Below are positions 61,153 to 63,139 of a stretch of DNA of 64,000 bases, piece after piece. The notes below the pieces were generated by a model. It ran no database searches. It was not told the origin of the DNA and was given only the letters and a program-made list of their open reading frames with translations. Made by a program: the position numbers and the translations under genes. Origin of the DNA: Luteibacter sp. dw_328 (GTDB lineage Bacteria; Pseudomonadota; Gammaproteobacteria; Xanthomonadales; Rhodanobacteraceae); NCBI RefSeq assembly GCF_018449605.1, contig NZ_JAAVUW010000005.1, positions 1 to 64,000 of the forward strand, read 5' to 3'. Numbering within the stretch: the stretch's first letter is position 1; each line of letters begins with the position of its first letter.

Positions 61153-61177
61153 AAACCCGCCGCAAGGCGGGTTTTTT
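61153..61177 (+). terminator. Intrinsic terminator of rpmBG
   Basis: AAACCCGCC / GGCGGGTTT stem with a GCAA tetraloop and a run of six T residues, just after rpmG. Confidence 0.93.
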
Positions 61178-61230
61178 GTTGTCTGCGAGAATCTCGCTTC
61201 GCGAGTGCCTGGTATCAGCGGCTTACGCCG

Positions 61231-61300
61231 AGGCGGGCGCGGGCGGGCGGGCGCGGGCGGGCGCGGGCGGCGCGGGCGGCACGGGGCGCGGCGGCGAGGC
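61231..61300 (+). repeat. G-rich tandem tract (GGGCGCGGGCGGGC units)
   Basis: About 70 bases of imperfect tandem repeats made of GGGC and GCGGGC. At least eight runs of three or more G residues on the plus strand make G-quadruplex formation possible. It lies immediately before element A and is probably hard to assemble and copy exactly. Confidence 0.7.
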
Positions 61301-61301
61301 G

Positions 61302-61445
61302 CAGAGCCTTCGGTGCCCACCCTCGCTGCTCAGACACGTCCTCCGCGTTTCGTACCGGAAAGGCCGCTGCGCGGCCGTGTACTTATTTGGCCTACGGCCG
61401 CTCCACTTGTGCGGAACTCGCCTCGAGGGTGGGCACCGAAGGCTC
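61302..61445 (+). repeat. Element A: ~144-bp repeat with perfect terminal inverted repeats
   Basis: The ends (61302-61324 and 61423-61445) are exact 23-bp inverted repeats containing TTCGGTGCCCACCCTCG. The interior holds a hairpin GGCCGC-TGC-GCGGCC and a conserved stretch CTACGGCCGCTCCACTTG. The same interior occurs in element B in the opposite orientation. No open frame in it resembles a transposase. Confidence 0.85.
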
Positions 61446-61473
61446 TTCCCATCCCTGAGGTTCGTGTGGGTCG

Positions 61474-61497
61474 AGCCGAAGCAACGCTGCTTCGGCT
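61474..61497. repeat. Perfect 10-bp hairpin between elements A and B
   Basis: AGCCGAAGCA and TGCTTCGGCT are separated by ACGC. It is not followed by a T-run. It lies in the 243-bp segment between the two inverted elements, which has no recognised gene. Confidence 0.7.
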
Positions 61498-61688
61498 GCT
61501 GGTTCGTCGCCGTCGCCAGACGGTCAACCCTGGCGCGCTGGTCGCGATCGGCCGCGCGAGCTGGCGCAGCGGCGAGGAAGGCGCTCACCGAGCCGGAGCG
61601 TCCGTACCAGCACGCCCGCCGTAACGGTCCGCTTGGGCGGCCACATCCACACCAACGGCTCTCCTTCCCGCTGACCGTCGCGTCGTGA

Positions 61689-61830
61689 GAGACCTTGGTG
61701 TCCACCCTCGAGGCGAGTTCCGCACAAGTGGAGCGGCCGTAGGCCAGTAGGTACATGGGCCGCGTGAGCGGCCTTTCCTTGTCGAACGCGGAGGACGTGT
61801 CTGAGCAGCGAGGGTGGACACCAAGGTCTC
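61689..61830 (-). repeat. Element B: inverted copy of element A with a compensated stem
   Basis: The ends (61689-61710 and 61809-61830) are exact 22-bp inverted repeats containing TTGGTGTCCACCCTCG. The interior matches element A read on the opposite strand, including GGCCGC-TCAC-GCGGCC. The stem differs from that of element A at four aligned positions, and each change is matched on the other arm. Confidence 0.85.
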
Positions 61831-61893
61831 CCCGCGAGACGCCCAAGTGTACGAAGCGACGGCGAAGCCGAGCCCGCGAGGTGCGAGATGAAC

Positions 61894-61924
61894 CAAAAAA
61901 AGGCCCGCCAGTGGCGGGCCTTTT
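61894..61924. terminator. Bidirectional terminator, mainly for the desaturase
   Basis: AAGGCCCGCCA / TGGCGGGCCTT stem flanked by seven A residues on the left and four T residues on the right. On the minus strand it ends with seven T residues after the desaturase gene. Confidence 0.9.
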
Positions 61925-61945: not shown

Positions 61946-63139
61946 TTACGCGCCCACCGCCGAGTATCCCTTCAATCTTTCAGCAAACTGCTGCAGCGAG
62001 CGAATCCCGCTTTGTTCCGCTTCGACAATCCACTGTTGGAGCGACTTCAGCGCCTTATCCGCGCCACGCTCTTCCATCAGCGCCACCAGACGGGCGCGGA
62101 ACTCGCACACCGTGGTCAGCGTCGGGCGATTGGCCAGCGCGGCATGCATGCGCTCGCGGGCATCGTTGTCCAGCCAGCGGCCGCCATCGGCCAGTGCACG
62201 GCGCACGCGACGCGGCACGGCTTTCACGCTGTCCCCCGCCTGACTGACTTCTTCGCGCATGGTCGGCAGGATCACGTTGCGGTAGTAGTCGGTCGTGGCC
62301 TGGAAGCGCAGCGCCAGCACACCCTTGAGGGTCTCGGCGTCCGGCAGGTGCACGTTAGGACGGATATTGAGGGTCGGTGCGACGCGCAGCACCTTGGCGA
62401 GGCCTACGGCGCGGAGAGTGCAGATAGCGGCCCAGCCAATGTCGAACTCCCACTTGCGCAGTGCGAACTTCGCCGAGCTCGGGAAAGCATGGTGGTTGTT
62501 GTGCAACTCTTCGCCGCCGATCCAGAAACCCCAGGGCGAGATGTTCGTCGCCGTGTCCGAGCTCTCGAAGTTGCGGTAGCCCCACCAATGGCCGATGCCG
62601 TTGACGAAGCCAGCGGCCCAGAACGGGATCCAGATCATCTGGATGGCCCAGATCGCCAGGCCGACCACGCCGAACAGCGACACGTTGATGATCGCCATCA
62701 AGGTCGGGCCCCAGTACGGGTGGCTGCCGAACAGCTTGCGCTCGAACCAGTCGTCAGGCGTGCCGCGACCGTACTTCTCCATGTCGGCCTTGTTGTAGCT
62801 GGCCTCACGGTAGAGGGCGACGCCGTCGAAGAAGACCTTCTTGATCCCGAACACCTGCGGGCTATGCGGATCTTCCTCGGTCTCGACCTTGGCGTGGTGC
62901 TTGCGATGGATAGCGACCCACTCGCGCACGACCATGCCCGTCGTCAGCCAGCCCCAGAAACGGAAGAAGCCGTTGAGGGTCCAGTGGAAATCCACGCCGC
63001 GATGGGTCGCGCTCCGGTGGTAATACAGGGTCACCGTGAAAATGGTGAGCTGCGTCAGCACGAGCAGATAGACCACCATTTCGCCCCAGCTTGCGCGGGA
63101 GAGACCGTTGGCCAGGAAATCGAGCAGGGTGTCGAGCAT
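61946..63139 (-). CDS. Acyl-CoA/acyl-lipid desaturase (delta-9 type)
   Basis: The 397-residue membrane di-iron desaturase has the three histidine boxes HRSATH (41-46), HRKHH (78-82) and HNNHH (213-217). They are separated by membrane segments such as VVYLLVLTQLTIFTVTLYY and SLFGVVGLAIWAIQMIW. It introduces a cis double bond into saturated acyl chains with oxygen and an electron donor. The C-terminal ~130 residues form a helical cytosolic tail, longer than in many bacterial homologues. A good intrinsic terminator follows. Confidence 0.9.
   Translation of the reverse strand: MLDTLLDFLANGLSRASWGEMVVYLLVLTQLTIFTVTLYYHRSATHRGVDFHWTLNGFFRFWGWLTTGMVVREWVAIHRKHHAKVETEEDPHSPQVFGIKKVFFDGVALYREASYNKADMEKYGRGTPDDWFERKLFGSHPYWGPTLMAIINVSLFGVVGLAIWAIQMIWIPFWAAGFVNGIGHWWGYRNFESSDTATNISPWGFWIGGEELHNNHHAFPSSAKFALRKWEFDIGWAAICTLRAVGLAKVLRVAPTLNIRPNVHLPDAETLKGVLALRFQATTDYYRNVILPTMREEVSQAGDSVKAVPRRVRRALADGGRWLDNDARERMHAALANRPTLTTVCEFRARLVALMEERGADKALKSLQQWIVEAEQSGIRSLQQFAERLKGYSAVGA

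Follow-up and report, generated by a model that had tools for sequence, protein, structure and literature searches.

The rpmG-desaturase intergenic locus

The window analysed here, 64,000 nucleotides of a contig of Luteibacter sp. dw_328 (genome G000), encodes two convergent genes on either side of an inserted repeat unit: rpmG, coding for the 50S ribosomal protein L33 (60959..61123, plus strand; NCBIfam TIGR01023), on the left, and a gene coding for a DesA-family fatty acid desaturase (61946..63139, minus strand; NCBIfam NF049918) on the right. Both are followed by an intrinsic terminator: that of rpmG (61155..61177, plus strand, recognised in the sequence) has its T-run to the left of where the unit inserted, and that of the desaturase gene (61898..61924, minus strand) has a T-run that abuts the right end of the unit. 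The C-terminal domain of the desaturase is shared with ISL3 transposases (NF049919, DesA_ISL3_tail), and weak PF01610 matches like that of this tail are present in all 23 genomes of the genus.

Between the terminators lie two structured domains, element A (61302..61446, sense strand minus) and element B (61688..61832, sense strand plus), which match a 145-position covariance model (R1, built from 48 chosen elements) with 160.8 and 167.5 bits, respectively. In element A, AGAGCCTTCGGTGCCCACCCTCG (61303-61325) pairs perfectly over 23 bp with its complement at 61424-61446 to form the closing stem (P1), whose end is one base further to the right than in the sequence-only reading; the closing stem of element B is 22 bp long and likewise perfect (61689-61710 and 61809-61830). 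As that reading had described, the two are inverted homologues (inverted pairs of 59 nt, 93% complementary, and of 51 nt, 88%), their stems differ at four positions (C/A, T/C, C/T and C/T), each difference being matched on the other arm, and GGCCGC...GCGGCC is retained in both interiors around different loops. DNA folds of A and B, on both strands, are 6.5 to 8.2 standard deviations below dinucleotide shuffles; because the folds lie so far below the shuffles and the genome contains the domain 61 times (at least 147 bits), the A/B pattern is not due to chance.

A and B are parts of one larger repeat unit, whose right end is at 61894. In brief, this unit includes, beside the two domains: (i) a middle (61447..61687, 241 bp, without assigned strand), most of which is matched by 23 other G000 copies at 75-86% identity and part of it by five more, and which varies in length and sequence between species; (ii) a B-side outer module (61833..61881, plus strand) ending in ACGCCCAAGTGTACGAAGCGACGGCGAAGCCGAGCCCGCGAGG and common to many G000 copies, the blastn homology of many of which stops near 61878-61881; and (iii) a shortened ISL3-type terminal inverted repeat (TIR; 61883..61894, minus strand), which ends in GATGAACC against an A-run, scores 15/22 at 61894 and is kept in a fuller form by G116 at the same site. 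No left TIR was found in the window copy, in which only the right end remains. A G+C-rich simple repeat (GGGCGGGCGC..., 61225-61300) separates the rpmG terminator from element A, at the place expected for the left TIR.

The orthologous rpmG-desaturase site was reached through the PF01610 match of the desaturase tail in 18 loci, in two of which (L229 and L230) rpmG was not found; 16 were compared by eye, and all 16 have a hairpin with a T-run after rpmG. The gap is an empty site in G103 and G111, with two facing terminators only and no model match, and it holds a unit with a single domain in G116 and G114. In G115 and G107 it holds other inserts, likewise with GGTTC...GAACC or GAGCC ends beside T/A-runs, and in the remaining loci other sequence. 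Model matches were obtained in three of the 18 loci only (L225 of G000, L222 of G116 and L221 of G114); G103, G105, G107, G108, G111, G112 and G120 carry the element elsewhere in the genome and none in these loci. The insert of G115 (L214) is about 70 bp long, with GGTTCTTC...GAAGAACC ends beside A-runs, and is perhaps a much shorter ISL3-type miniature element.

Copies of the unit and its ISL3-type ends

The covariance model search revealed 61 strong copies of the ~143-nt domain in G000 (at least 147 bits); the 124 matches at E<=0.01 consist of these, of two palindromic loci matched on both strands (76-91 bits) and of 59 antisense echoes (at most 48 bits). The sequence-only reading was to be refuted if A and B were the only two copies, made by a single recent duplication, which this number rules out. 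The strong domains form 27 pairs and seven singles, two of the latter at contig starts, and the unit is present about thirty times. All 27 pairs are in the '-+' arrangement, with sense strands pointing outward and the domains 202-261 bp apart. Among the matches listed, the pairs of other genomes are likewise outward (G112, 16/16; G118, 12/12; and, at E<=1e-9, G105, 12/12; G124, 4/4; G103, 1/1), giving 72 outward pairs out of 72 for G000 and these five genomes. According to a crude neighbour-orientation script, which missed rpmG at the window locus, 16 of the 27 G000 units lie between convergent genes.

Interior sequences differ on average by 6.0 between A copies and by 7.4 between B copies, hence each of the two domains has a lineage of its own. 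Conversion of one domain by the other inside a unit was considered and rejected, the interior difference within pairs being 11.27 vs 11.75 under random pairing, with 203 of 2000 permutations as low (26 of the 27 pairs used).

Several other features of the copies were observed. The two palindromic loci (L171, G000:C16:17934-18095; L172, G000:C20:228726-228893) are near-palindromes from which the middle and some of both domains have apparently been lost. To the left of A, many copies (L012, L007, L010, L258) have ~30-bp repeats in head-to-tail order, derived from the P1 arm (GCGCAGAGCCTTCGGTGCTCAGACGTAGCG and alike), and GCGAGGT heptamers follow B. Two loci in other genomes have domains that are further apart: in L336 (G124:C83:31500-35300) a pair 2.2 kb apart (2,237 bp) surrounds a DUF4365 gene together with an ORF of 386 aa that has no Pfam match, and in L337 (G105:C1:1426300-1429300) the 1,549-bp gap separating the domains of a G105 unit encodes an IS110-family transposase.

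The outer flanks of 25 G000 units were compared, and many of these units span from GGTTC(T/A)TCGCGGAATGCCGGGG to the complement of GGTTC(T/A)TCGCGGATTACCGGGG, with T- or A-runs outside. The TIR pattern GGTTC(T/A)TCGCGGATTACCGGGG occurs at 38 sites in G000, vs none for the reversed control; 36 of them are within 600 bp of a domain and the other two are near contig ends. In the 8 bp outside 30 TIR sites, 215 of 240 bases (90%) are A or T, vs 35% in 30 G000 loci. Both ends are kept in 13 of 32 G000 loci (one of 320 bp and twelve of 646-819 bp) and are not both visible, at the score used, in the other 19. In the 13 loci the two flanking octamers agree at 8, 7, 6, 7, 6, 7, 7, 6, 6, 7, 4, 8 and 5 of 8 positions, with a mean of 6.46 vs 3.67 under random pairing (0 of 5000 trials as high); they are identical in two loci (e.g. 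TTTAATAA), and two others agree at only 4 and 5 of 8. Most of these octamers are homopolymer runs, so the length of the target duplication, about 8 bp, is inexact. The A/T-rich flanking octamers agree as target duplications do, and in this respect the unit resembles ISL3 elements.

ISL3-family insertion sequences and the miniature inverted-repeat elements (MITEs) derived from insertion sequence ends resemble the unit in their closely similar TIRs, their A/T-rich flanking octamers and their insertion at T/A-runs. Seven of eight plasmid ISL3 relatives (protein 48-78% identical) have closely similar TIRs at A/T-runs on both sides; in the eighth record (L305, H4) the script found no such TIR pair. 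ISPpu12a, an ISL3 element, has 24-bp inverted repeats and an 8-bp repeat (PMC4133298). G124 encodes a real ISL3 transposase, in an element that starts at CCTTTTTTTT/GGTTCATCGCTGATAACCGTGG and has, at its left end, an end like the G000 TIR; the reading frame runs off the contig. In these comparisons the Luteibacter unit differs in having no transposase and in having a conserved outward folding pair, which in five species occurs free of such ends. TIMEs, miniature elements derived from Tn3, are comparable in being non-autonomous, foldable and bounded by inverted repeats; as they are described in PMC4133298, however, they have Tn3 ends and 5-6-bp duplications, not those of ISL3.

The absence of a transposase frame from the unit, stated in the sequence-only reading, holds: the sole PF01610 match of G000 is the desaturase tail, which lies outside the unit, and ISL3 in G000 was rejected as a candidate on that account. 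A search with PF01610 thus detected no ISL3 transposase in the G000 assembly and a true one in one of the 23 genomes of the genus (G124). It is possible that an ISL3 partner was lost in assembly, as some contig ends fall at units. With its ISL3-type ends and targets, the G000 unit can be classed as an ISL3-type non-autonomous element, which was probably moved in trans by an ISL3-family transposase. The proposal of a non-autonomous mobile element is thereby supported for the whole unit, by its ISL3-type TIRs, its agreeing octamers and its lack of a transposase. The accompanying suggestion that it moves as a hairpin is not supported; the termini and the octamers beside them match an insertion sequence of the ISL3 (DDE) type. 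An autonomous A-B element with its own transposase was also considered and set aside, the genes within the long gaps being taken for passengers or nested insertions.

Inverted palindromes near gene ends are characteristic of REP/BIME sequences, and the inverted hairpin pairs at gene ends, together with a Y1_Tnp match in 22 of the 23 genomes of the genus, could point to a REP/BIME-like element spread by a RAYT (Y1) transposase. This is very improbable: Y1_Tnp matches, one to three in each of the 22 genomes, also occur in genomes without the element, and among 25 Y1_Tnp loci the core motif GAGGCGAGTTC was found in none and GTAGGAGC-type REPs in 15. RAYT is accordingly disfavoured as the mover, Y1_Tnp being neither linked to nor correlated with the element, which is also far longer than REP/BIME sequences.

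Outside G000, the ISL3-type ends are not general. In a TIR scan of 400 bp outside the domains (score of at least 16/22; reversed control 1/150), ends were found on 35/54 sides in G000, 13/24 in G116, 13/22 in G118, 4/8 in G112, 6/6 in G123, 3/3 in G108 and 3/4 in G107, and on 0/29 sides in G103, G105, G124, G120 and G111 together; G124's own units have ISL3 ends on 0/6 sides, though its genome encodes an ISL3 transposase. In G103, G105, G124 and G111 the same pair is flanked instead by a CGGTTCATTCGC...GCGAATG module. Five species thus carry the outward pair without ISL3 ends, and the pair is therefore not tied to these ends. In an unrooted tree of one gene, that of the desaturase, from the 23 genomes, these five species form one clade (100/100); on the opposite side of the branch are eight genomes with ISL3 ends, the label of one of them, G114, having been assigned by eye, and genomes without the element. 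The idea that the pair predates these ends was discarded, since the five species form a single clade and the unrooted tree is compatible with gain as well as loss.

Core loops, covarying stems and wobble pairs

In an alignment of 48 elements, 99.6% of 1871 cells are paired, and 12 of 39 pairs have changed on both sides. The covariation value is 0.188 vs 0.068 when shuffled (none of 500 shuffles near), and six slides of the alignment leave 37-49% of cells paired, none near the true register. Covariation is seen in helices P1 (8 pairs) and P4 (4 pairs); P2 and P3 barely vary and are uninformative. The compensatory change first noticed in two copies recurs, in P1 and P4, across 13 genomes. Among the consensus sequences of the 13 species, the mean difference is 0.017 in the 5' core (AGGCGAGTTCCGCACAAG), 0.050 in the 3' core, 0.046 in P3, 0.131 in the P1 arms, 0.218 in the P4 arms and 0.310 in the other interior. 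If a folded strand is under constraint, its core loops should be nearly fixed while its stems vary pairwise, as is seen here.

Wobble pairs were counted in 119 elements (61 of G000 and 58 of 12 other genomes), six matches of at most 91 bits having been dropped from 125. Read on the sense strand, G.U cells outnumber A.C cells by 106 vs 12, one fixed G.U pair being left out and the rows being related, such that tests on them are not independent. Counted once per species and pair, the numbers are 38 vs 11; by distinct positions they are 16 vs 8, which alone is not significant. This bias to one strand is suggestive.

Quasi-palindromes can be corrected during replication, when a hairpin forms, the template switches and both arms change together. 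If replication hairpins and template switching copied one arm onto the other in this way, the stems would covary without selection; we regard this as unlikely to account for the element, while giving it some weight. The DNA does seem prone to hairpin formation or misalignment, as two G000 loci (C16:17934 and C20:228726) look like collapsed palindromes. However, one-sided wobble variants persist in many copies (two pairs have 44 and 33 such cells), A.C mismatches are rare, and the asymmetric loops beside P1 have not been erased and are the most conserved part. Arm-to-arm correction could thus yield the stem covariation by itself, but not the frozen loops. The earlier statement that the fold is selected is supported by paired change in two stems across 13 genomes and by near-invariant core loops; the stems, taken alone, could be explained by neutral correction.

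Larger variants of the domain were also found. In G111 and G120, an extra foldable insert is present, P1, AGGCGAGTTC and the GGCCGTAGGCC hairpin stay, and CCGCACAAG is absent. In G105, a ~185-nt form makes up 14 of the 30 matches; the four of these that were aligned retain P1 and the 5' half, with other sequence, which has an GTAGGAGC-type REP hairpin, in place of the 3' half. Two G124 forms resemble the latter. Common to most of the variants seen are P1, the loop AGGCGAGUUC (AGGCGAGTTC) and the hairpin GGCCGnAGGCC.

These data also bear on whether the two elements are genes for small structured RNAs, with transcription running outward, such that selection would keep the RNA and the transposon ends would be only its vehicle. 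Such RNAs would fit the covariation of P1 and P4, the near-invariant core loops, the wobble bias, which in both elements favours the sense strand, and the larger G111 and G120 forms, in which a foldable insert is added and P1 is retained along with parts of the core. On the other hand, promoter-like sites were not detected in the unit by a crude scan, the middle, where promoters would have to lie, is divergent, G105 commonly has forms in which the 3' half is replaced, and seven of the 23 genomes of the genus are without a match. Rfam gave no match over A, the middle or B at E<=1, and none at gathering scores in six loci. The pair of structured RNAs offered by the sequence-only reading is thus possible, with both a promoter-like site (crude scan) and an Rfam match absent, and is judged improbable, slightly more so than arm correction.

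The nearest printed class that was found is that of the MRSC (mobile/repeat sequence candidates, e.g. MRSC-65-2, PMC11109978), which, as presented there, share with the unit dozens of copies per genome, a covariation-supported stem and an ambiguity between an RNA and a DNA fold. The Luteibacter unit is itself multi-copy with a covarying stem. In that account MRSC-65-2 is a single long stem from diverse phyla (PMC11109978), whereas the Luteibacter unit is a multi-helix domain from one genus, in outward pairs bounded by TIRs.

Distribution and proposed mode of spread

A DNA search gave matches in 13 of 233 genomes of the family, all within the 23 genomes of Luteibacter. With the model, matches at E<=1e-3 were found in 16 of these 23 genomes, three of them weak (G109, G115 and G121), and none in seven; with stricter filters, matches were found in 12 of 398 genomes of the order, all of the same genus. 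The 13 species with strong matches have 6 to 115 model matches each, antisense echoes included. The exact core pattern, compared with the GTDB collection, was found in 73 stretches, all from Luteibacter, in five genomes, and searches of viral contigs, plasmids and phages gave no match. As far as these sequence searches reach, the repeat unit appears confined to the genus Luteibacter, and no description of it was found in literature searches. In the three species with weak model matches only (G121, G109 and G115; L129, L130, L131, L145), there are palindromes with long stems of a related kind (AGAGCCGnCGG...CACCCTCG and alike), the interiors of which differ.

Taken together, the best explanation, to which we assign a probability of roughly 0.6, is an outward pair of folding domains carried in an ISL3-type MITE, with the folded strand being recognised. 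A and B are two outward-facing copies of one ~143-nt folding domain, paired in one repeat unit, and in G000 many such units lie, with their ISL3-type TIRs, beside terminator T-runs. This unit would have spread as a non-autonomous, selfish element, moved in trans by an ISL3-family transposase that is now lost or unassembled here. The domain would be kept because one of its strands, RNA or single-stranded DNA, adopts the fold and is a target of recognition, in all likelihood by a protein; if RNA, the folded strand could come from read-through transcription. A further-reaching possibility, held tentatively and at well below even odds, is that the twin outward domain represents a new class of folded-strand element (RNA or single-stranded DNA) recognised by a protein, with ISL3 ends in some Luteibacter only and with a function that keeps the core loops while the stems change in pairs and the flanks drift.

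The unit would then be a miniature transposon that has a constrained nucleic-acid fold as a passenger, in many species and always in outward pairs, and its ISL3-type ends beside terminator T-runs would explain the place of such repeats at gene ends. If the fold is functional, some 'junk' repeats carry structured elements, and Luteibacter, with 13 species with strong matches and none in seven of 23 genomes, would offer a natural comparison.
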